DNA from: Candidatus Zhuqueibacterota bacterium
Lineage (GTDB): Bacteria > KSB1 > UBA2214
DNA: 12,785 bases
Direction: 5' to 3'
Assembly (NCBI GenBank): GCA_022706175.1
Contig: JAKJDB010000028.1
Span: forward strand, 1 to 12,785
The position numbers were made by a program, and so were the translations under genes. This document shows, piece after piece, positions 4 to 12,785 of the stretch. The notes below the pieces were generated by a model. It saw only the letters and a program-made list of their open reading frames with translations, was not told the origin of the DNA and did not search any database. Each line of letters starts with the position of its first letter. The first letter of the stretch is position 1.

Positions 4-99
4 GTCCAACTGATTCAGCGCAACCTTCGATGTCATTCGAGGCTGCCAACCTGACAGAACTGGTATTCACGCTGCTTAACCTCAACGCATTGGTTGGGC
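4..99 (+). repeat. Possible attC-like site of the preceding cassette
   Basis: GTCCAAC at 4-10 (RYYYAAC) and GTTGGGC at 93-99 (GTTRRRY) are complementary at 6 of 7 and 96 bp apart, close to the spacing of the clearer site at 778-871. The right half contains GCTTAAC (74-80), like the inner box of many 60-base elements. A convincing inner stem was not found, so this rests mainly on the outer boxes and on the relation of 93-99 to the 778-784 box. Confidence 0.3.
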
Positions 100-106
100 G
101 ATAACT

Positions 107-499
107 TTATCTTCTTACTTGCAGTCCGAGTATTTTTTCCATCGGATCAAAATCGCGATCGTTGTGCAATAGCTCAAAACCGTTTTCAATACAGAAGGTA
201 GCGATAATTACATCGATCATTTTACGTACTGTTATTCCACTTTTCCGTAAAATTCTGAAATTCTGGGCAGATTGTAAAGCAATCTTTTTGCCTACAAAAT
301 CATGATACTCCAAACTTTCCATGATCTCTTTCGCAGCTTGATATTCTTTCTCGTTACGAAAACCCTGAAGGAATTCAGTGATAATAAGATCCCCCGTAAT
401 TATGCGATTGTGATCTAACTCATAATCAAGTAAGTTGGTATGAGTAGCATCGATTCCTCTGACATAATCAATCCATACAGATGTATCAGCGACAATCAT
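107..499 (-). CDS. vapC: VapC-type PIN-domain ribonuclease toxin
   Basis: Toxin of a type II toxin-antitoxin pair. The 130-residue length is typical for VapC. The PIN-domain acidic residues are all visible: D5 in the N-terminal VADTSVW motif, E42 in ITEFLQG, D96 in RKMIDVIIA and D114 in HNDRDFD (with D116 as a possible extra metal ligand). From the family, such proteins bind Mg2+ or Mn2+ in this acidic pocket and cleave RNA, often tRNA or rRNA. The exact target cannot be read from the sequence. The ATG start lies inside the stop of vapB (ATGA, 496-499), so translation is probably coupled to that of the antitoxin. Nothing looks broken: no stop, frameshift or missing catalytic residue. The call is secure; the cellular target is unknown. 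Confidence 0.93.
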   Translation of the reverse strand: MIVADTSVWIDYVRGIDATHTNLLDYELDHNRIITGDLIITEFLQGFRNEKEYQAAKEIMESLEYHDFVGKKIALQSAQNFRILRKSGITVRKMIDVIIATFCIENGFELLHNDRDFDPMEKILGLQVRR

Positions 500-690
500 T
501 TTTCTGCTCTCATTTTATCAAGATCACCTTCCCATTTTAGTTTTCCCCTGTATTTTCGAATTTTCGCTTGTGTTCTTAACGCAATCAGTAATTTGAGACC
601 TTCTTCGACCGCATCTTTTTTAGTCTTATGCCCAGAGAGCACAAGTGCTTTCTGCATCAAGTCGTCGTCAATTACGATATTTGTTCTCAT
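496..690 (-). CDS. vapB: VapB-type ribbon-helix-helix antitoxin
   Basis: Antitoxin of 64 residues, first gene of the pair. The N-terminus MRTNIVIDDDLMQKAL followed by the helix KTKKDAVEEGLKLLI has the pattern of the short VapB family (DUF2191 type): a ribbon strand with alternating residues, then two helices making a DNA-binding ribbon-helix-helix. The basic, polar C-terminal tail (about residues 40-64, with KIRKYRGKLKWEGDLDKMR) is where this family wraps the toxin. The ATG start is preceded by a strong Shine-Dalgarno AGGAGG five bases upstream. The gene ends four bases into vapC. From the family, VapB and the VapBC complex repress their own promoter. The palindrome just upstream (700-739) is the obvious binding site. 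Confidence 0.92.
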   Translation of the reverse strand: MRTNIVIDDDLMQKALVLSGHKTKKDAVEEGLKLLIALRTQAKIRKYRGKLKWEGDLDKMRAEK

Positions 691-694
691 AGGG

Positions 695-701
695 TCCTCC
701 T
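695..701 (-). promoter_or_regulatory. Ribosome binding site of vapB, overlapping the operator
   Basis: Minus-strand AGGAGGA ending five bases before the vapB ATG. Its upstream end runs into the proximal arm of the palindrome at 700-739. A transcript starting inside the palindrome would still carry this site. Confidence 0.8.
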
Positions 702-739
702 GTCATGTGTATAAATACGACATAATATACACATGACAG
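700..739. promoter_or_regulatory. 40-bp palindromic operator of vapBC
   Basis: Perfect 14-bp inverted arms (CTGTCATGTGTATA at 700-713, its complement at 726-739) around a 12-bp AT-rich centre. It lies directly upstream of vapB, covers the predicted -10 box, and touches the Shine-Dalgarno sequence. Two half-sites at this distance fit binding of two ribbon-helix-helix dimers, as in VapBC autoregulation. The palindrome is seen directly; its role as operator is inferred from position and family. Confidence 0.82.
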
Positions 740-752
740 TGAAAGGAAACAA
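724..752 (-). promoter_or_regulatory. Predicted sigma-70-type promoter of vapBC
   Basis: On the minus strand, TTGTTT (752-747) and TATATT (729-724) are separated by 17 bp. The -10 box lies in the distal arm and centre of the palindrome, so bound VapB would block polymerase. An alternative -10, TATTAT, is shifted two bases. The predicted start near 717 gives a very short leader before the vapB Shine-Dalgarno. Confidence 0.6.
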
Positions 753-777
753 GTATTTTTATGCGTTTGACATGTCC

Positions 778-871
778 GCCCAACAGCTGTGTGGTCGCCG
801 CGGTAAAATGGAAACTGAACCCCAAAATGCAAATCAGCCAAGCGGCCACCTTCACCAGCCGCTGGTTAGGC
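778..871 (+). repeat. attC-like integron recombination site
   Basis: A 94-bp imperfect palindrome with integron attC features. The outer boxes are GCCCAAC (778-784, RYYYAAC) and GTTAGGC (865-871, GTTRRRY), complementary at 6 of 7 bases. Inside, AGC (785-787) pairs with GCT (861-863) after an unpaired G at 864, and GGTCGCCGC (793-801) pairs with GCGGCCACC (842-850) at 8 of 9. The centre (about 804-838) is unpaired or variable. Unpaired bases on one arm and a variable centre are typical of attC. The patch is also distinctly GC-richer than its surroundings. Its translations in both strands are probably spurious. The palindrome is seen; the attC identity is inferred. Confidence 0.58.
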
Positions 872-3193: not shown

Positions 3194-5551
3194 TTATTTT
3201 ATAAATCCATGGTACAAGCCCAAATAATAGGGCAATAAAAAGACAGCGCCGTCGGCGAGCCCGCGGCCGGAACCGCCGGTGACCAGTTCAAAGGGATTGC
3301 GGTTCCAATGATTGAAATGGCATTCATCCACCGGAATGACTTTGCCGTCGACCCGATACCCCTGTCTGGTAAACGACTCGGGATCCTCGTCAAAGCAGGC
3401 GGAAAGCTCCGACAAGCGCACCAGATCGATGCGACGGCTGTTGTCGTGGCGCCAGTCAAAACGATCGAGGGGAAAGCGCTTCAGCGTCTCCACCCCATCC
3501 TCCAGCCAATCGCCGGTGGCGTCCAGCGCATGCGTGCCCCACTGATCGGTGTAGCGAACGCCGTTGCACGAGGCGGCCATCAGGAAATTGAACAGCGGAT
3601 TCATCTCCGGCGCCTCGAGCCGCCAGGTCAGCCAAAAAGAGGCAGCATATTGCGAACGCCGCAGCGGATCCGGCTCATATTTGATGAGATTGTAATAACA
3701 CATAAAACCCATCTCATCATCGGACTGATTGCCGCTGCCGATGCCGCGCTGAACTTTCATGTTCATCACATTCTGTAGATATCCGTGCCGATTGATCAGC
3801 GAATCGGCCACGGTCCGATATTTGGCATCGCCGGTGATGTGCGCGGTGGTGGCCAGATAAGAGAGCATGCTCAGCGAGTTGAGCCCTCGTTCGATGAACC
3901 AGCGCGGATCGAAATTGATCTCTGCCGGGTCATAGCGCCCCCATCGCGTGGGCCGGCCGTCATGATCGACCAGCTTGCAGCCGTGCTTGATCAGGTGGTC
4001 GGTCAACCCCCGCACCTGTTCCTGCACCTGTCGCTTTTCCGTTTCTGTTTCCGCCACCAGGTCGTAATAGAGCCCGTAGAGAAAATAGTGGCCGTCCAGT
4101 TCATCGGAGCTGGTGTCTGTTTTCCAATACCACTCTCCGTCTGCGCTGACGGGCCAGCGCGGTTCGAACACTTTCCAAAACTTGTCCCGCCCGGCCTGGT
4201 TGCGCCGATCGTCCTCCAGCCGGCCGATGTTGGGATCAGGACCGCTGGTGGGAAGCACCGTGCGGCAGACAAAACCGGCAGGCGCCGGATGCGTGCCGCC
4301 CTGGGTCACCTGGCCCAGAAAACGCATGGCCTGAAACGCCTTGTCCGCCCTTCGTTTGGCGAGCGGATCCCGCGTGGCGGCATAGGCGAAACATTCGCCG
4401 GCGCCATACATGCTGGTCCACAGTCCGTCGTTGTCGCTGTCGGACTGGTAAAATTCCGCTTTATCGCCCGGATTCTTCACCCCTACCTCCAGCACAAACT
4501 CGTAGGGCGTGCGCCGGTGATAACGATCGATCTCCGCCTCGAACCAGGCCGCCTTTTGCGCCAGCGTCATCGGTTCCCGGTAAATCCGGGACACACCCCG
4601 GTTTGTCGCCAGCCAGGCCGCACCCGATCGAGTAACCGCGATGCTGTTCACTCGATCATTCGGCAGCCAGCGCAAACCCTGACGGTATTCCCAGGTCTTT
4701 CCATCATAACGGATCGCGCCCATGGTCGTGCCGAACCAAATCGAGCTGTCCGGCCCGGCAGCCAAAGCAGTAAAATCATCAAAGGGCAACCCATCCTGCC
4801 CGGTGTACAGCTGCCACCTCTCCCCTGTCTGGCAGCCAACACCCTGTGGACAGGCAAACCATAGCCGCTCAAACCGGTCCACGGCAACGCCACGAACATC
4901 CGCCGGCGCCCAGCTCTGTTTATCCTGACGTGGATGCAGCGCACGCCATGCCTTTTCCCCCTGGCTGTATTGCATCAAACCGGCTGAGGCGGCGGCATAG
5001 ATCGTCTGCTTTGCATCAACCGCAAGCTGCTTGATCACGCCCAGGCTTTTGGTCTCAACCAGCGGCCTGGCTTTGCCGCTCTGCGAAAGGAGATAGAGAT
5101 TCTCCTCGCCGGCGAGATAAATCTGCTCGCCGAAAGCCAGCGCGGTGATCGCCTTGGCGGACGGCTTTTTCTCCAACACAAGCTTTTGTTCGATTCGCCC
5201 GCCCTGCAAGATCAAAACAGCTCGCTGCGGAGCATCGGGATCACCGGACTCGGCCAAGGCGGCCACCTGCCGGCTATGTGCGGCCAACAGACGAATGCGT
5301 ACGCCCTGTGTCGCAGGAATCATTTGCCAGCTTTTTTCTCCTAACCAGGCCGCGCCCTTGTCCGTGCCGGCATAGAGGATCCCATCAGCGGCTGTGGCCA
5401 GACCGTTGACTTTATCAGCCGGCAGGCCCTGATCCACAGTGTAAAAGGTCCGCCCTTCCTGTTCGAACACCACCGGTTTGGCATCGGACTGAGCGGAAGC
5501 CAAACAAGCTCCCACAATCAGCAAAAAAAGGATAACGTTCTTTTTCACCAT
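3194..5551 (-). CDS. Ligand-sensor propeller fused to an uncharacterised alpha-helical glycan-enzyme-like domain
   Basis: Product of 785 residues. Residues 1-20 are a signal peptide (MVKKNVILFLLIVGACLASA). About 30-330 is a beta-propeller with Reg_prop-type repeats; the clearest copies include DQGLPADKVNGLA, GQDGLPFDDFTALA with SSIWFGTTMGAIRYDG, and PNDRVNSIA with GAAWLATNRGVSRI. In Bacteroidota hybrid two-component systems such propellers sense oligosaccharides, but here no membrane segment, kinase or DNA-binding domain follows. Instead about 335-785 is a mostly helical domain with DSDNDGLWTSMYGAGECF (about 370), TSSDELDGHYF (about 482), PTRWG (about 534) and ERGLNSLSMLSYL (about 555). I know these motifs from uncharacterised secreted proteins; they look like an alpha/alpha-toroid glycosidase or lyase, with the acidic D/E clusters as active-site candidates. 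The gene starts 12 bp after the GH2 stop, with GAGGAG six bases before ATG, and is the last of the operon. Confidence 0.82.
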   Translation of the reverse strand: MVKKNVILFLLIVGACLASAQSDAKPVVFEQEGRTFYTVDQGLPADKVNGLATAADGILYAGTDKGAAWLGEKSWQMIPATQGVRIRLLAAHSRQVAALAESGDPDAPQRAVLILQGGRIEQKLVLEKKPSAKAITALAFGEQIYLAGEENLYLLSQSGKARPLVETKSLGVIKQLAVDAKQTIYAAASAGLMQYSQGEKAWRALHPRQDKQSWAPADVRGVAVDRFERLWFACPQGVGCQTGERWQLYTGQDGLPFDDFTALAAGPDSSIWFGTTMGAIRYDGKTWEYRQGLRWLPNDRVNSIAVTRSGAAWLATNRGVSRIYREPMTLAQKAAWFEAEIDRYHRRTPYEFVLEVGVKNPGDKAEFYQSDSDNDGLWTSMYGAGECFAYAATRDPLAKRRADKAFQAMRFLGQVTQGGTHPAPAGFVCRTVLPTSGPDPNIGRLEDDRRNQAGRDKFWKVFEPRWPVSADGEWYWKTDTSSDELDGHYFLYGLYYDLVAETETEKRQVQEQVRGLTDHLIKHGCKLVDHDGRPTRWGRYDPAEINFDPRWFIERGLNSLSMLSYLATTAHITGDAKYRTVADSLINRHGYLQNVMNMKVQRGIGSGNQSDDEMGFMCYYNLIKYEPDPLRRSQYAASFWLTWRLEAPEMNPLFNFLMAASCNGVRYTDQWGTHALDATGDWLEDGVETLKRFPLDRFDWRHDNSRRIDLVRLSELSACFDEDPESFTRQGYRVDGKVIPVDECHFNHWNRNPFELVTGGSGRGLADGAVFLLPYYLGLYHGFIK

Positions 5552-5563
5552 GGAGGGCTCCTC

Positions 5564-8404
5564 TTATTTTTTCGCCTGCTTTTTTAAAAGGCTGCCTAAC
5601 TGATCAAGAGTTAACTCTTGATCAGGGTTGAAAGCTTTGCTGTCGACATACTTGATCAGACTCGCCAGCATCTGGCGACAGACCGGATTTTGCGCCCCCT
5701 CAGCGAGCAGATCGATGCTGCACACCAAGACTCTACCTTTACCCACACGGCCTTCAAAGATCAACGCCAGTCGCCGGGCGGTGAACCAGTCGTCGATCAC
5801 GCTGACGATGGGCTGCAACGATTTCGGCAAATCCGATACAATCATCGGAGCGGCTTGGTGGATCAGATACCACCATTGCCAGTTGCTGTGATAGTCGGTG
5901 GGAAACTCAGCCAGCGCCCGATGACCGGGGTCGCACAGAATGCCGAGCGTATGCGGAGCCTGACGGCTGGTCCAGGCGGTGTTCCAAAAGATGGAGGAAA
6001 ATCCCAGCGCGATCGGCCCGGTTTTAGCATCCCCTTTCACCTCGCCGGGCGGAATGAACAACATTACTTTACCGCCCTGCGCCAGCTTTGCTTTACAAAC
6101 CTCATCGATGCGGTTGCACACCAACACGTCGTCCGGAATCGTTGCAGAGACCTGGTCTGGATAGATCCACACGTCCCATTGATTTTCTATATCTCCGGGC
6201 TGCAGCGAAACGACCAGCTGAAACTGTCCCGGACTGTCCACACCCTGCAGAGGAATATGGATCGAACCCAGAGGGATGGCATTGTCAATGGGAATATCAC
6301 GAGCCGGCAAAGAGCCGCTGGCTACCGTGCGATGCCGTGCATCCTGCAGCCGCCATAGACAAGTGCGATCGTGCAGCGGCTGATCGCCGAAATGGGCGAT
6401 CTCGATGTCGGCCGCCAGAGTATCGGCGTTGGTAAAGACCCGCTTCTCCAGCCGCGCCAGCAGCACGGTGTGATTGCAGAAGCGGCGATATTCCGCAGCC
6501 GTAACATATCCCTTCTCCTGCCAAAAAGGATCGAGCACGCCCACCAGCGCTGTGCCCTGGCCGGGGAAATCGTGCAAATCAAGCAGTTGAAATCCAGCCA
6601 TGGCCGGCGTGCGCAGCGCGGACTCGATCTCTTCTTTATAGAGAAGCGTTTGCAATTTTCCGGAGGCGAGGAGAAATTTGTCCGCCTGCTTGGCCATTCC
6701 CTGCTTTTGCAAGCGATCGTAAAATATGTCAAAATTCTTGGGCTTGAGATAGCCGGTGTATTTTTTCCTTTCGCGGAAATTGGGATACACACACCACTGG
6801 CCGATCTCGTGGCTGATCACCGGCACAGAGACGCTGTTGATGAATTGACGATAATCGACGGTGGTGGTCGGCGGCAGGGCGTTGACGCGTGATTTCAATC
6901 CCTTTCCCCACGCCTGAATGCGCGGATCCGGGACTACATGAAACTGATTTTCCGGCAATTTTGGCCAACCGGACGCAGCCGAATACAGACGCCGGCTATC
7001 CATCGACTTGAAATGTTGCACCCATTCACTCAAATAACTGTTCTTGTTCACGCCGCCCGGCTCATTGCCGTAGAGCATAAAGACGAAGGAAGGATGATTG
7101 CCGTAAAAGCGCAGAATCCGCTCAGCCTCCGCGTAAATCCACGCATCGGTCGGCCCACCGCTACCCAGTGAGGCACTGTCGTTTTTAAAGGAATTATTAG
7201 CCCAGGAAGAGCATTCCACCTGCAGATACATGCCCAACTCATCGGCCGCGGTGAATGCTGCTTCAGGCGGACACCAGGAGTGAAAACGGAGATTGTTCAA
7301 ACCGTGCGCTTTGGCGATGCGGATGATCCGGCGCCATGGCTCGACCTCGGTCGGCGGATGCCCGGTCTGCGGAAAAATTGCGCATTCCAAAGTGCCGCGG
7401 ATAAACGTTTTGCGGCCATTGATGAGAAACTGGGTGCCGAGCGTGGAAATTTCGCGCAGGCCAAAGGTTACTTTTTTAACCTCGCCGTTGGCCGGCAAGC
7501 GGGCGGTAAGATGGTAAAGGAAAGGATGAAACTCGTCCCACAGAGCGGCCGACTCGCCCATGGGAATGGTAACCGAAAAAACGCCACCTGATGAATCCCA
7601 TTGCACCAGCGCAGAGGCATGATATTCACCGGGATCGATCTCCAGGGAAACCGGCATGGTCCCCAGCTCAGCTCTGAGCGAGCCGACCTTACCTTTGACC
7701 AGGATCGAGTAGGAGGCGATATCAGGGTATACTTGCAGATCCTGAATCCACACTGCAGGCGTGCGGATCAGCTCGATGCGGCCAACCATGCCGTTCCAAT
7801 TTCCCTGCGTGTGGTCGGAAACGCTGTGCGAGTTGACGCCCACGGGCACAACCAGGCGGTTATCGATGCGCACAGTCAACACGTGCTTGCCGGCCGTTAA
7901 TCCGGACAGCTCATAGACGTGGGGCGTGGCCAGGGCGTTCTGGCTGCCGATTAAGCGCCCATCGATCCAGACGCGCGTTTCCCAGTGCGGCCGTTCGATG
8001 AACAGTGCAACGTGGCTTTCACCCCAATCTGCCGGAATAATCACATCACGCTGATACCAGGCCGCACCGCGATAGTATTTTTCCGGCTGCAGCCAAAAGG
8101 GCACTTGGATGTGACCCGGCCGGCGATACTCTGCATACTCTGGTGCAAGAAAAAACGAGCTGTCCAGAATGGTGCCGGTCCAGGGCGTCTCCAGGCTGAT
8201 CTCATCACCGATCCCCTGCGCCGCCAAATCCACAGGGACTTGCACTCGGCCGCCAAGTACTCGCTCCGGCCAATGGGCCTGTTCGCCGATATCCTGGCGG
8301 TCCAACTCGTAGCGCCATTTGCCGGCCAGCGGAATAGACTGCGCCATGAGGGTCATGCATCCAGTCGCCAGCAGCGCCAGAGCAACCAGCCAATGCCATT
8401 TCAT
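5564..8404 (-). CDS. Glycoside hydrolase family 2 enzyme with C-terminal amidotransferase-like extension
   Basis: 946 residues, exported: MKWHWLVALALLATGCMTLMAQ is a signal peptide, possibly a lipoprotein signal (ATG-C, non-ideal at -3). Domains: sugar-binding jelly roll about 30-215, immunoglobulin-like sandwich about 216-318, TIM barrel about 320-600, then beta-rich linkers and, from about 755, a Rossmann-like segment (GKVMLFIPPGE ... GRVLVCSIDLL) resembling the inactive amidotransferase/ThuA-like domains attached to some large glycosidases. The catalytic pair of GH2 is present: acid/base E448 in LYGNEPGG and nucleophile E533 in VISHEIGQW, 85 residues apart (76 in LacZ). It should be a retaining exo-beta-glycosidase (galactosidase, glucuronidase or similar); the sugar cannot be told. 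ATG has AGGAGG five bases upstream. It follows the HAD gene by 113 bp and precedes the propeller gene by 12 bp. Confidence 0.9.
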   Translation of the reverse strand: MKWHWLVALALLATGCMTLMAQSIPLAGKWRYELDRQDIGEQAHWPERVLGGRVQVPVDLAAQGIGDEISLETPWTGTILDSSFFLAPEYAEYRRPGHIQVPFWLQPEKYYRGAAWYQRDVIIPADWGESHVALFIERPHWETRVWIDGRLIGSQNALATPHVYELSGLTAGKHVLTVRIDNRLVVPVGVNSHSVSDHTQGNWNGMVGRIELIRTPAVWIQDLQVYPDIASYSILVKGKVGSLRAELGTMPVSLEIDPGEYHASALVQWDSSGGVFSVTIPMGESAALWDEFHPFLYHLTARLPANGEVKKVTFGLREISTLGTQFLINGRKTFIRGTLECAIFPQTGHPPTEVEPWRRIIRIAKAHGLNNLRFHSWCPPEAAFTAADELGMYLQVECSSWANNSFKNDSASLGSGGPTDAWIYAEAERILRFYGNHPSFVFMLYGNEPGGVNKNSYLSEWVQHFKSMDSRRLYSAASGWPKLPENQFHVVPDPRIQAWGKGLKSRVNALPPTTTVDYRQFINSVSVPVISHEIGQWCVYPNFRERKKYTGYLKPKNFDIFYDRLQKQGMAKQADKFLLASGKLQTLLYKEEIESALRTPAMAGFQLLDLHDFPGQGTALVGVLDPFWQEKGYVTAAEYRRFCNHTVLLARLEKRVFTNADTLAADIEIAHFGDQPLHDRTCLWRLQDARHRTVASGSLPARDIPIDNAIPLGSIHIPLQGVDSPGQFQLVVSLQPGDIENQWDVWIYPDQVSATIPDDVLVCNRIDEVCKAKLAQGGKVMLFIPPGEVKGDAKTGPIALGFSSIFWNTAWTSRQAPHTLGILCDPGHRALAEFPTDYHSNWQWWYLIHQAAPMIVSDLPKSLQPIVSVIDDWFTARRLALIFEGRVGKGRVLVCSIDLLAEGAQNPVCRQMLASLIKYVDSKAFNPDQELTLDQLGSLLKKQAKK

Positions 8405-8517
8405 GGTATCCTCCTATGATCAGCCCATGGTATCGTTTGCTGCAGCGAACTCCACTCGCTTCCGTGCTTGTGGATCACTTTCAAGTGTAGAGAGCACAGC
8501 CCAGGAGCCCGGCCGGT
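8405..8517. other. Intergenic gap inside the operon
   Basis: 113 bp between the HAD and GH2 genes, the largest gap in the minus-strand run. It holds the GH2 Shine-Dalgarno (8408-8413) and no clear terminator. TTGAAA occurs on the minus strand at 8483-8478, but no matching -10 box was found, so a separate GH2 promoter is not supported. Confidence 0.4.
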
Positions 8518-9351
8518 TCAGTTTCCCAACAAAAAAGCAAGCAGCTCTCTGCCATGCCTGAAATCCGGCATCAGCAGATCGCAGCCGGCTTTGGTGAGCC
8601 GTTCGATCTTGCGCGGTTCCCAGCCGCAGCCGGTGACTTCGTTGGAAGCGATGCCGATCGCGATGGCGCCGTTTTCCTTGGCGTTGCGGATCTCCACCGG
8701 GCCGTCGCCTAAAACCACCAGTTCGGCGCCGTGCAAATTGTTGTTGCGCAGAATTTCTTTGATCACCTTATCCTTGGAATACTCTTCCACTGAACCGATG
8801 GCGCCGTACACTCCGCCTTTGAACCACTTGTCCACGCCCAGCACGTTCGCTTCGTTGCGCACGTCCTCCTGATCCGTTCCGCTGGCGGTGTACATGATTA
8901 CATTGCGGTGGTAGAGCTGCTGACAAAAATCAATGGAACCCGCAACGGTGCAATCGGCAAGAGTTTTACGGCCGCTCTGCAGTTCGGCGATGCGCCGGCG
9001 TACGGGCACCATCAAACGGTCGTTGTAGATTTTTTTATACCCCCAACTGTCCAATATTTTATCCTTGGGCACCAGGCCGAACTCTTTCACCATCTCCACC
9101 AGCCCCTCCATCTGCAGGATGGTCTGAATGCCGGTGGTTTCATCGATAAATTCACGAACCCGGCGAACCACCTCATCGCTTACCGGATGATCGCCGCAAA
9201 TGCTTTCGATCATCACCGGCTCCATGATCCGTTCCCATCCTTCACGTAAAATGGAGATGGTGCCGTCGAAATCGAATATGGCGTATTTGATTCTTCCGCG
9301 TTCCAGGTTTTTATTCAAGATGCGAATCTCTGTTCCAGGGAGTGAGTCCAT
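8518..9351 (-). CDS. HAD-superfamily phosphatase
   Basis: 277 residues, no signal peptide, hence cytoplasmic. HAD motifs in order: motif I FDFDGT with nucleophile D27 and acid/base D29; motif II YTASG (T155 or S157); motif III lysine around K193/K195; motif IV LGDGPVEI with D216. A cap of about 120 residues between motifs I and II is of the C1 type seen in phosphoglycolate- and sugar-phosphate-type phosphatases. The reaction is probably phosphoester hydrolysis of a small metabolite; the substrate is unknown. Its place between exported glycan enzymes suggests it acts on a sugar phosphate made from the imported product, but this is inference. The Shine-Dalgarno before the ATG is weak and the first 20 residues are poorly conserved-looking, so the exact start is uncertain. 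The gap to the preceding gene is 22 bp. Confidence 0.88.
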   Translation of the reverse strand: MDSLPGTEIRILNKNLERGRIKYAIFDFDGTISILREGWERIMEPVMIESICGDHPVSDEVVRRVREFIDETTGIQTILQMEGLVEMVKEFGLVPKDKILDSWGYKKIYNDRLMVPVRRRIAELQSGRKTLADCTVAGSIDFCQQLYHRNVIMYTASGTDQEDVRNEANVLGVDKWFKGGVYGAIGSVEEYSKDKVIKEILRNNNLHGAELVVLGDGPVEIRNAKENGAIAIGIASNEVTGCGWEPRKIERLTKAGCDLLMPDFRHGRELLAFLLGN

Positions 9352-9373
9352 TCTCTGCTCTGCCTTTCTCTGT

Positions 9374-10606
9374 TTAAAGTTTTTCCAGTTTATAAATCAA
9401 GGTCGCAAATGGTTCATAGCGTTCTGTGATCGCGCCGTCCTGAATCTCGATCCGGCGATTCTCCGGCAAAACCTGCGCGGATGCAAATCCCTGCAAACCG
9501 CTGAGGCGGAGATGAACCGGATTTTTATCCGCATTGACGGTCAATAGATAGACCTCGCCGTTAACCGATTTAGCCGCCATCTCTACACCGCGGTCCACCG
9601 AATGGCCCACTTCGAGATACTCCTTGGTCAACGGCAATGAGACGGATCGTCCGGCCAGGACCAGCTGCAGGGAAGAGAGCTCGCGCGTTACTCTGGTCAA
9701 ATCGGTCCAGAAAGCGGATGGCTGCGGGGTGAAGGCTGAACCCCAGTAGATGACGCCGTTGGCGCCGTGTATAATGGACTGATAAGCCATAAAGCGGCTT
9801 TCCTCATAGCTTGGATATTTCACCATCTGCGTATCGCGGTCCGTCGACTGGCGCAACATCTCCCAGCTGAACGCCTGCAGCACCATGAACACCGGCCGCT
9901 CAGGGCCGGCGACCGTGCGCATTTTGTCCGTATACTCGCCCACCTGACTGATGTAAGTGTTCAACAGATCACCCTGCATCCCGTCCGGGTAGAGCGCGTA
10001 GGTGATGCGAATGCCCCTGGGGATAACCGGATAGATATCGCAGGCGACGATATCGGTCGCCGCGTTATAGCGCTTTAACGTGGAGACCAGGTTCGTCGGC
10101 GCGTGGTTGGTGTAGACCGGATGATGCGGGTCCGCCTGCTTGAGCGCCTGATAGCTTTGAGCCAGATCCTCGGGTTTGACGCGGCATTCGGCGGAATTCC
10201 ATCGCCAGGCCGGCTCATCCTCCATCTCCCAGAAAAGCAAGGCTGCATGGTCCTTCAATTTATTGACCCGCTCGACAAAAGCCGGCTGGGCTGTTGCCAT
10301 GTTAGCCGGATCGATGGAGCCCACGCTGATCCAGGTCTTTAGCCCATGCGCCTGGGCCTGATCGAGTTCATTCCGTTTTTCATTGACCCGCACCAGATTG
10401 TAACCGCTCTCGCGCGCGGCGCGAAATCCATTTTCAGCCTGGGGCAGATAATAGGTGCCGATGATAAAAGTGCGCTGCCCTTCTATGATCATCATGCCGT
10501 CGCTGTCAAAACTAATCGCCTGCGCAACCGGCGGCGCTGCCTCACGGCCGCAATGGTGCAGCAGCAGGCAGGCACATCCTAAAAGCACTAACACGGATCT
10601 TTTCAT
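9374..10606 (-). CDS. Secreted GH5-like TIM-barrel protein, glycosidase candidate
   Basis: The chosen start is ATG 10606: it overlaps the previous stop as ATGA and has AAGGAG eight bases upstream. An earlier in-frame start at 10639 would add 11 residues within the neighbour. Product: 410 residues. The N-terminus MKRSVLVLLGCACLLLHHCG is an export signal with a poor lipobox. A domain from about residue 30 to 320 has clan GH-A traits: beta-4-end motif FWEMEDEPAW with candidate acid/base E131, later IVACDIYPV, and IHGANGVIYWGSAF at the last strands. Where a clan GH-A nucleophile would be expected after FMVL, the sequence reads QAFSWE: Q244 is at the strand end, E249 five residues on. The C-terminal 80 residues are a beta-sandwich (YLLTVNADK ... 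PFATLIYKLEKL) as in alpha-amylase-like or GH domains. Substrate and even activity are uncertain. Confidence 0.78.
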   Translation of the reverse strand: MKRSVLVLLGCACLLLHHCGREAAPPVAQAISFDSDGMMIIEGQRTFIIGTYYLPQAENGFRAARESGYNLVRVNEKRNELDQAQAHGLKTWISVGSIDPANMATAQPAFVERVNKLKDHAALLFWEMEDEPAWRWNSAECRVKPEDLAQSYQALKQADPHHPVYTNHAPTNLVSTLKRYNAATDIVACDIYPVIPRGIRITYALYPDGMQGDLLNTYISQVGEYTDKMRTVAGPERPVFMVLQAFSWEMLRQSTDRDTQMVKYPSYEESRFMAYQSIIHGANGVIYWGSAFTPQPSAFWTDLTRVTRELSSLQLVLAGRSVSLPLTKEYLEVGHSVDRGVEMAAKSVNGEVYLLTVNADKNPVHLRLSGLQGFASAQVLPENRRIEIQDGAITERYEPFATLIYKLEKL

Positions 10607-11805
10607 TGCTGCCACTCCTTTGGAATCTCTACGATGCACACATCCGGATTGCCCAGATATTCGGAACCGAAAATGACAAATCGGCCCCGCGTATCCCAGC
10701 CAACCTCCGGGTGAGTGCCGCGGCCATAGGTGCGATGACCCGTAGTCAATAAATGCTTTTGCGTTGTTTTTGCATCAAAGAGGGCGATGCCCCCGTGCCA
10801 GTTGTCCCCTGCTACCCAGCGTCCGTAAGGATCACCACTGGCATGCCACCAGTTCAACTCCGCCACCTGGCTGTCTGTACCCTGCGGCCAGTAACTGCCT
10901 GCGCCGATGATCCGAACTTCATGGCTGTTAATATCGACAATTTTTACATGAGATTCAACCTTAAAACCATCTTTTTCAAAGCCGCCACAAAAGGTAACCA
11001 GATTGCCGACCCACCAGCACTCATGGGTCACCAGCTCTCCGGGCTGCTGCGGATGCAATTTCCAGGCGCCCTTGCCGGAAAAATCCACCAACCAAAGGCG
11101 CTGGCCGTCGCTGTCATGGCCACCGGAGCCGGCGAACATGACCAGATCGGGCCGATTGTGGCTGAATTGAACATGCGAAGTGCGAATGTCCGTGGTCAGT
11201 ATGGTCTTGACCTGGCCCGTTTGAATATCCATGGTGGCGATGGCGCTTTGACCGTTGGCCAGGTTCGCCGACAGGCTCAGCAGGGCGCCGTCTGCATTTT
11301 CGGTCAACGCTTCCTTTAAGGACAGCTCTGCCGGAACCGTCCCGATGCGGCGCTGACGGATTCGCACCTTATTTTTCGCCGCGAGATCGATGAGGACCTG
11401 CCACTCGACCACCTCCCGCTCACGCACCACATAAACAGAGTTGGTGTGACGCGACACAATGGCCAGTCCGGCATTGGTCGCGCCTGGCGGCAAAAGCTGC
11501 GCCAACTCTCCGGTGGCGGTCAAGTAGCCGAAATATTCGCTACGGCCGCTGCGGTCCGAGGAGAAAACGATCATGGAGCCGTCCGGCAGAAACGAATTGT
11601 GGGTAAAATAAAAGGCTCGGTCTGTTGCGCCGGCTGTGGTGATGAAGCGCAGCGGATAGCCTGTGACCGGATCGGTCACGATCTTGTGCTCACAGGGATA
11701 GATCCGGCAATTCCACACCGAGCTGCCGGGCTCCTCTTTGGCCGCCGATAGAACGCCGCTGAAAAGGACCAGCAACAGTACTGCATTCAGACGGATGGAT
11801 AACAT
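10603..11805 (-). CDS. PL22-like (oligogalacturonate-lyase-related) secreted propeller protein
   Basis: The chosen start is ATG 11805 (AGGAGG four bases upstream), not the in-frame ATG 11844. Product: 400 residues with signal peptide MLSIRLNAVLLLVLFSGVLSA. The remainder is a TolB/oligogalacturonate-lyase-type beta-propeller: DPVTGYPLRFIT, then FTHNSFLPDGSMIVFSSDRSG, THVQFSHNRPDLVMFAGSG-like blade with H211, ELVTHECWW with H261, and THPEVGWDTRGRFVIFGSE with H365. In PL22 enzymes a His-based Mn2+ site cleaves unsaturated or short galacturonides. H211, H261 and H365 are the candidate equivalents, but the family's HPH-type pair reads H365-P-E367 here and the nearby Gln is not evident. It may therefore act on a different uronide or be a non-catalytic propeller. 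The upstream gene ends 42 bp before the ATG and the downstream one overlaps by four bases. Confidence 0.72.
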   Translation of the reverse strand: MLSIRLNAVLLLVLFSGVLSAAKEEPGSSVWNCRIYPCEHKIVTDPVTGYPLRFITTAGATDRAFYFTHNSFLPDGSMIVFSSDRSGRSEYFGYLTATGELAQLLPPGATNAGLAIVSRHTNSVYVVREREVVEWQVLIDLAAKNKVRIRQRRIGTVPAELSLKEALTENADGALLSLSANLANGQSAIATMDIQTGQVKTILTTDIRTSHVQFSHNRPDLVMFAGSGGHDSDGQRLWLVDFSGKGAWKLHPQQPGELVTHECWWVGNLVTFCGGFEKDGFKVESHVKIVDINSHEVRIIGAGSYWPQGTDSQVAELNWWHASGDPYGRWVAGDNWHGGIALFDAKTTQKHLLTTGHRTYGRGTHPEVGWDTRGRFVIFGSEYLGNPDVCIVEIPKEWQQ

Positions 11806-11847
11806 GGCACCTCCTGCACAGTTTGTAGACCGCTTGCGTTTCAAATT

Positions 11848-12785
11848 CTAATGGTCCAGCTGCCGGCTCAATTCCGCAATCGCTTGCCGGTGCCGTTGGT
11901 AGAGCTCTACATCAGCCGGAGAATGCCAGATCATGCGATCCCCTTGTTGCAGATAATCCCGGCTTTCAATAAAAGCAGCATCAGAGAGCTCCATCACATC
12001 GACCAGAGCGATGCGCACCACCTCCTGTGCACGCTTGATCAGATCGCGTTGACTTGACGTGTTTCGGCCGCGCTCAATCTGCTGCTGCAGCAGCGCCAGG
12101 GCTGCCATATCCTCCACGCCGTCGCGCACCGCTTCCCAACGGACACTCGGCACCGGCGCCTCGCCCGGATAGACCAGGGCGTATTCATCATTCAGGTTCA
12201 TGGGCGTAAACCACGGATTAAAAGGCTGGGTGCTATGCGTCCAAAAGCCGATGCCGTCCAGGCCGAAAAATTTCGCCCGCCATGCGTTGGCACGGTTGTA
12301 ACGCAGCGGCGACAAGGATTTGGTCTGCGACACGCACTCATAGGACCAAACAGGCTTGCCCGATTTTATTATCCGTTCAATGCGCGGATCAGCCGCCAAC
12401 AACCCGGAAACCAGACGCATGTTCGGGCACCACACATCGATGAACGGCTCGATGCGTTGAAAATCCTGCCAGGACAACCCAGGGACCGGATCCGTGTAGA
12501 CGCGCAGCCTGGCGTCTGCCTCGCGGAACAGCTGCGCCGCGTCAAGAAGCACCGGTATATTCTTACCGTAATCAAGGCCCGGTTCGTCCAAAGGATAAAA
12601 AGCGTAATCGTTGTAGTTGATTCCCTGCGCGGTCAAGTGATCGCGGAAAGCGCGCAAAAATTCGATTTCGAAACGTCTCTTTGTCTGCTCGTCGGGCGGC
12701 CGGCTAAAAGTGATCGCGGGATGACCGATCTGAAAAAGAATTTGGCCCCGGCCTTTGAGCCGTTCCAGTTCAATATCCACTGCTT
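11848..12785 (-). CDS. DUF4091-type glycoside hydrolase, N-terminus beyond the window
   Basis: About 312 residues are visible. The frame stays open through the right edge (the codon at 12780 is GTG inside a continuing frame), so the true start is outside. The visible part is the second half of a TIM barrel plus C-terminal helical tail. YPLDEPG (E at 12583-12585) is the likely strand-4 acid/base. KPVWSYECV and FFGLDGIGFWTHS mark later strands. LVYPGEAPVPSVRWEAVRDGVEDM is the hallmark of the DUF4091 C-terminal region found in large secreted glycosidase-like proteins of Bacteroidota, Planctomycetota and relatives. Family members usually exceed 500 residues and are mostly uncharacterised. First visible gene of the minus-strand operon; its promoter lies outside the window. 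Confidence 0.83.
   Translation of the reverse strand, partial: AVDIELERLKGRGQILFQIGHPAITFSRPPDEQTKRRFEIEFLRAFRDHLTAQGINYNDYAFYPLDEPGLDYGKNIPVLLDAAQLFREADARLRVYTDPVPGLSWQDFQRIEPFIDVWCPNMRLVSGLLAADPRIERIIKSGKPVWSYECVSQTKSLSPLRYNRANAWRAKFFGLDGIGFWTHSTQPFNPWFTPMNLNDEYALVYPGEAPVPSVRWEAVRDGVEDMAALALLQQQIERGRNTSSQRDLIKRAQEVVRIALVDVMELSDAAFIESRDYLQQGDRMIWHSPADVELYQRHRQAIAELSRQLDH

Follow-up and report, generated by a model that had tools for sequence, protein, structure and literature searches.

A candidate integron cassette carrying vapBC in a relative of candidate division KSB1

At its left end, the window (the whole stretch of DNA analyzed here, 12,785 nucleotides) carries a vapBC toxin-antitoxin (TA) pair between palindromes that resemble the attC sites of integrons, which raises the question of whether this operon is a gene cassette and, if so, in which direction the cassette runs. 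We consider it reasonably probable that positions 783 to 10, on the minus strand, form a 774-bp integron cassette with a complete vapBC, carried by a bacterium related to candidate division KSB1. A sequence-only reading had already placed vapBC inside an integron-like cassette; the cassette survives as the best interpretation of the locus, while its direction and the ownership of its flanking sites are probably the reverse of those first given. The coordinates of all features are collected in Table 1.

A vapBC operon between complementary core boxes

The two genes form one operon with a PIN toxin behind VapB, each family scoring above its cut-off; vapB precedes vapC, and the two overlap by 4 bases. 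This gene order, the 4-base overlap, and an inverted repeat before vapB are shared with the type II VapBC family (PF01850/PF09957), from which the locus differs in having integron-type core boxes on both flanks. From the two families, the toxin is predicted to act as an RNase and the antitoxin to neutralize it. The inverted repeat is likely the VapBC operator, and sequence similar to the inverted-repeat region lies upstream of vapB in loci L001 to L003. In the window, the inverted repeat overlaps a promoter-like pair of hexamers picked out by eye; a promoter scan of positions 1 to 1400 returned 3 promoter-like sites against 3.8 expected, with no excess over chance.

Table 1. Features at the left end of the window.
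Feature	Coordinates	Strand	Basis or detail
Site A, proposed attC of the vapBC cassette	4-99	minus	GCCCAAC 99->93, GTTGGAC 10->4; 6/7 box pair
Proposed vapBC cassette, 783->10, 774 bp	10-783	minus	G|TT to G|TT of both right-hand boxes
vapC, PIN-domain toxin, 130 aa	107-499	minus	PF01850, E 5.3e-10, above cut-off
vapB antitoxin, 64 aa	496-690	minus	PF09957, E 6.7e-14, above cut-off
Inverted repeat, perfect 14-nt arms, 12-nt center	700-713/726-739 (700-739)		upstream of vapB; repeat search
Promoter-like pair, TTGTTT (752->747), 17 nt, TATATT (729->724)	724-752	minus	by eye; absent from promoter scan
Site B, attC-like	778-871	minus	GCCTAAC 871->865, GTTGGGC 784->778; covariance-model match

On the plus strand, GCCCAAC (778-784) and GTTAGGC (865-871) bound a 94-bp imperfect palindrome with six of seven box positions paired, and the letters bear out the RYYYAAC and GTTRRRY outer boxes described there earlier. 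The plus-strand letters likewise agree with the previous identification of GTTGGGC (93-99) as the exact reverse complement (7/7) of GCCCAAC at 778-784. This same GTTGGGC box ends an additional pair that the sequence-only reading did not contain: GTCCAAC (4-10) and GTTGGGC (93-99) delimit 96 bp (4-99) and again pair at six of seven positions. Complementary attC-type core boxes are therefore present at both ends of the proposed cassette, with 7/7 complementarity between the sites and 6/7 within each. The box of site A begins 7 nt past the vapC stop. The inner arms of site A are weak and by themselves at chance level, and the inner boxes of site B pair at five of seven positions whichever direction is read under the extra-base (L-box) criterion.

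Integron integrases cut between the G and the TT of the core box. At this locus, an integrase would cut and join at 784/783 and 10/9, and the segment from 783 to 10 could then be excised as a 774-bp circle. In such a cassette, vapB and vapC would lie in cassette direction with a promoter of their own, probably self-regulated, and could therefore be expressed wherever the cassette sits. A cell losing the cassette would be left with unchecked toxin and suffer from it; this stabilizing function is predicted from the two gene families.

Passages of PMC11023631 describe TA cassettes as carrying their own promoters and their loss as being punished, and count 19 TA cassettes in the Vibrio cholerae superintegron. 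TA systems rank among the commonest cassette functions according to PMC7370490 and PMC8618304, which agrees with the frequency of TA cassettes assumed at the outset. With the TA cassettes of sedentary chromosomal integrons, the locus shares a TA pair between complementary core boxes, a putative promoter of its own, and the size of one cassette; it differs from them in its weak, hard-to-recognize attC, in having no integrase or array visible in the window, and in its host from the KSB1-containing phylum. The feature is most likely an ordinary mobile gene cassette, one more TA cassette of a known class.

Covariance-model matches and chance tests

None of the Rfam families, which to our knowledge include no attC family, matched the window at threshold, and we therefore built our own attC covariance models. 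These were seeded on integron arrays of relatives, with the window excluded from all of them: R1 comprised 4 seeds, R2 48 matches, and R3 91 matches, the latter two counting some sites twice because of overlapping loci. The R1 seeds were four short-loop sites from two genomes, chosen because MAFFT aligned the 3' arms of attC sites badly. A strict L-box scanner had found almost nothing in intI-bearing loci and was dropped as a test in favor of the covariance models.

With filters off, R2 placed its best match of the window at site B on the minus strand (16.5 bits, E 0.029), and the broader R3 scored the same site and strand at 14.8 bits (E 0.055). The narrowest model, R1, matched neither site, and no model gave a full-site match at site A. 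R2 assigns 26.6 to 83.5 bits to the 91 sites underlying R3, so that site B, if genuine, is still a weak one. The palindrome at 778-871 thus scores as the sequence-only reading expected of an attC, albeit weakly and with our own models rather than those of IntegronFinder. That reading had also named the absence of related palindromes as evidence against a cassette, and the remaining 12 kb indeed contains no further convincing attC, yet 778-871 scores.

The R2 runner-up in the window is an ordinary hairpin at 1190-1226 (13.2 bits, E 0.18). It lies within a strong hairpin at 1183-1233, with 24-nt arms that are 83% complementary, followed by a T-rich stretch and terminator-like in appearance; its 13.2 bits provide a yardstick for false positives.

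Taken singly, each site is near chance, but their combined geometry is far from it. We applied first-order Markov shuffling to the flanks (1-106 and 691-984), kept the genes in place, and counted arrangements with a right-hand box pair, an exact complement following vapC at no more than 22 nt, and a further box pairing with that complement. The full arrangement arose in 0 of 200,000 shuffles, and the arrangement without the partner box of site A in 1 of 200,000; these figures overstate the case because the rule was defined after the sequence had been inspected. By a home-made arm-alignment score, counted for each site on both strands, 16 candidates reached 18 or more over all loci examined, against 4.7 expected from shuffles; 778-871 scored 18, above most chance pairs, and 4-99 scored 12, which is at chance level. 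As a plain hairpin, site B is unremarkable: its minus strand is equaled in folding by 11 of 200 shuffles, and its plus strand by 110 of 200.

Integrons and vapC relatives in the KSB1-containing phylum

Less expected than the cassette itself is the frequency of integron integrases outside the window, in the phylum that contains KSB1. The integron integrase family TIGR02249 was found above its curated cut-off in 35 of the 82 genomes from the phylum of the KSB1 genome G001, and attC-model matches (E ≤ 0.01) in 45 of the 82 by a scan run with stricter filters; both counts could be inflated by binning errors in metagenome-assembled genomes (MAGs). No match was obtained in 14 control genomes at the E 1e-60 limit of the phylum-wide TIGR02249 search. 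Among genomes with vapC relatives or a vapC fragment, 8 of 32 carried TIGR02249 above cut-off, compared with 0 of 14 controls. Sites matching attC lay no more than 15 kb from intI at at least 8 of 46 intI places, a count that rests on a by-eye selection of 20 attC places (19 from the 82-genome scan and one from the scan that yielded the G078 array), and of 31 short intI loci, 7 contained an R3 match to attC (E ≤ 0.1); arrays are therefore demonstrated for a minority of these integrases only. Four of the eight places (G106:C10, G094:C108, G057:C10, and G070:C3) have a reversed layout, with attC lying past the 3' end of intI and sharing its strand, the opposite of the usual arrangement.

One array in genome G078 (L097; G078:C6, 3942-15279) contains 11 attC sites on one strand in canonical layout relative to intI, one of which also scores weakly on the other strand. 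The array sites that were read show extra bases in their left inner box. Four of the ten cassettes in this array are of TA type (HigBA twice, a PIN protein, and ParE with an antitoxin); both HigBA pairs lie in cassette direction, and the PIN protein and the ParE/antitoxin pair are inverted. This integron and those of G105 (L112) and G110 (L178) belong to the phylum of the host's closest relatives and share with the window locus RYYYAAC/GTTRRRY boxes, a gene stop a few nucleotides before the box, and TA-type content, while R2 gives their sites 23 to 84 bits, against 16.5 for site B. No intI was found in G110 at E ≤ 1e-60.

The earlier suggestion of integrons in a lineage where they are little studied is supported, in that the host's relatives carry intI and attC arrays. 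Neither KSB1 nor Calditrichota appears in the phylum list of the 2021 review PMC8618304 or in the distribution section of PMC9024848. Among the papers listed by a literature search that covered few subscription journals, none reported integrons in this phylum, the matches to "KSB1" being Klebsiella strains by title and abstract.

VapC has 2,596 homologues at E ≤ 0.001. Among the best 120 of these are metagenome proteins (P0001 to P0006) that are 95 to 96% identical to it. Relatives at 72 to 86% identity come from MAGs or genomes labeled KSB1, Spirochaetes (including Treponema), Kuenenia/Planctomycetaceae, Deltaproteobacteria, and Hydrogenedentota, a taxonomic spread that would fit movement between phyla. 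Within the phylum, 4 of 82 genomes encode vapC at 80% identity or more. All 25 plasmid records matching vapC are less than 60% identical, and none of 44 stretches was confirmed as a vapC relative in the scan of viral contigs.

We found only four attC-model matches at E ≤ 5 in 32 loci around vapC relatives, three of them in one locus and about 0.9 kb away. L012 was rejected as a vapBC cassette, since its attC-like matches begin about 0.9 kb downstream. An exact RYYYAAC box lies within 30 nt past the vapC stop in 4 of 31 loci, where 1.4% per locus would be expected (P 0.0008); these are L009 and L004 to L006, the latter three apparently one shared locus. With up to one mismatch anywhere in those 30 nt, the box occurs in 11 of 31, which is not significant (P 0.08). 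At 4 to 7 nt past the stop, a range picked after the data were seen, a box with up to one mismatch is present in 6 of 28 loci (P 0.001) and an exact box in 2 of 28 (P 0.0025). The 31 loci are the full 36 minus five partial matches (L032 to L036); the 28 further omit the near-duplicates L005, L006, and L025.

One KSB1 genome with vapC at 86% identity contains pieces of integron integrase (L067/L048, G001:C284), one of them with an internal stop, which probably represent a decayed integron.

We tentatively suggest, with somewhat less than even confidence, that the KSB1-containing phylum is a major unlisted home of TA-rich chromosomal integrons and that this VapBC subfamily has traveled among five or more phyla in cassette form, the worn attC boxes 4 to 7 nt past vapC being what remained once it had settled outside arrays. 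Should the phylum-wide finding stand, a phylum that is largely uncultured would be a large unsampled reservoir of integrons; fossil boxes behind vapC, if that is what they are, would make it possible to follow across phyla how a TA family leaves integrons.

Cassette direction, alternative explanations, and the host

Given a cassette, the minus direction appears quite probable to us; we propose it because of the minus-strand model scores, the core box behind the vapC stop, and the 7-nt spacing between the two. vapBC then probably runs in cassette direction, with 99 to 4 as its own attC and 871 to 778 as the site before it, and we propose that site B is the attC, or a remnant of one, of a preceding cassette. 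The sequence-only reading had instead drawn a cassette from left to right (94-865), with 778-871 on the plus strand as its own attC and vapBC inverted inside. Two tests of folding favor that version. PMC11023631 describes the bottom strand of attC, in folded form, as the substrate of the integrase; if site B is an attC on the minus strand, its plus strand would have to fold, and it does so no better than shuffled sequence, whereas the minus strand, the folding one in a left-to-right cassette, folds better (-17.2 versus -12.7 kcal/mol). A simple L-box rule also slightly favors plus (11.5 versus 9), and the inverted PIN and ParE cassettes, two of the four TA-type cassettes in the G078 array, provide a precedent. 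Against it, R2 prefers minus over plus at site B by 9.8 bits (16.5 versus 6.7), and R3 does not list the plus-strand reading at E ≤ 10. The box 7 nt behind the vapC stop likewise resembles the arrangement in cassette genes, the gene stop lying 5 to 6 nt before the box in 4 of 10 cassettes of the G078 array and the distance being 4 to 6 nt in some relatives and true cassettes. We regard a left-to-right cassette as unlikely; from the model strand and the vapC box, the cassette 94-865 with 778-871 as its attC probably becomes 783 to 10 with attC 99 to 4.

An ordinary chromosomal vapBC beside palindromes that merely resemble attC boxes would account for the near-chance standing of each individual site and for the close vapC relatives in KSB1-phylum genomes that have no attC nearby. 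The joint geometry, a best model match that falls exactly at the predicted ends, and the integron-rich relatives speak against such a coincidence, which we judge quite unlikely. Both sites nevertheless look worn and degenerate, and the locus is therefore probably an eroded array edge or a stray cassette. A true cassette that sits outside an integron, or was left behind by an eroded array, with no array to its left, is compatible with the cassette from 783 to 10 that we favor, and we see it as possible at rather less than even probability. Its worn sites, the ordinary chromosome with glycoside hydrolases on the right, and the 45-nt repeat at 985-1029 would suit this history, as would those relatives that lie outside arrays and retain just the first of the boxes past vapC; the abstract of PMC12901181 mentions insertion at non-integron attG sites. 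However, the left side is out of view, the window beginning 3 bases ahead of site A, and several intI contigs of the phylum likewise terminate near the integron.

Among the 82 genomes, the closest matches to the glycoside hydrolase family 2 (GH2) protein at 5564-8404 are in G078 (69%) and then G077 (68%), both of which have intI above cut-off and attC matches. The nine main open reading frames (ORFs) of the window include no intI. To the right of site B, positions 872-984 contain no clear gene and are followed by the 45-nt repeat. Visual inspection of the ORFs listed next to this repeat, which may be an insertion-sequence end, showed no transposase. Copies of it occur near contig ends in G077 (98%, two places) and G046 (87%), and in the interior of contigs in G078 (93%) and G081 (86%). 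The run of minus-strand genes at 3194-12780 encodes GH2, a HAD hydrolase, and oligogalacturonate-lyase-like and GH123-like proteins and is probably a polysaccharide or glycan utilization cluster.
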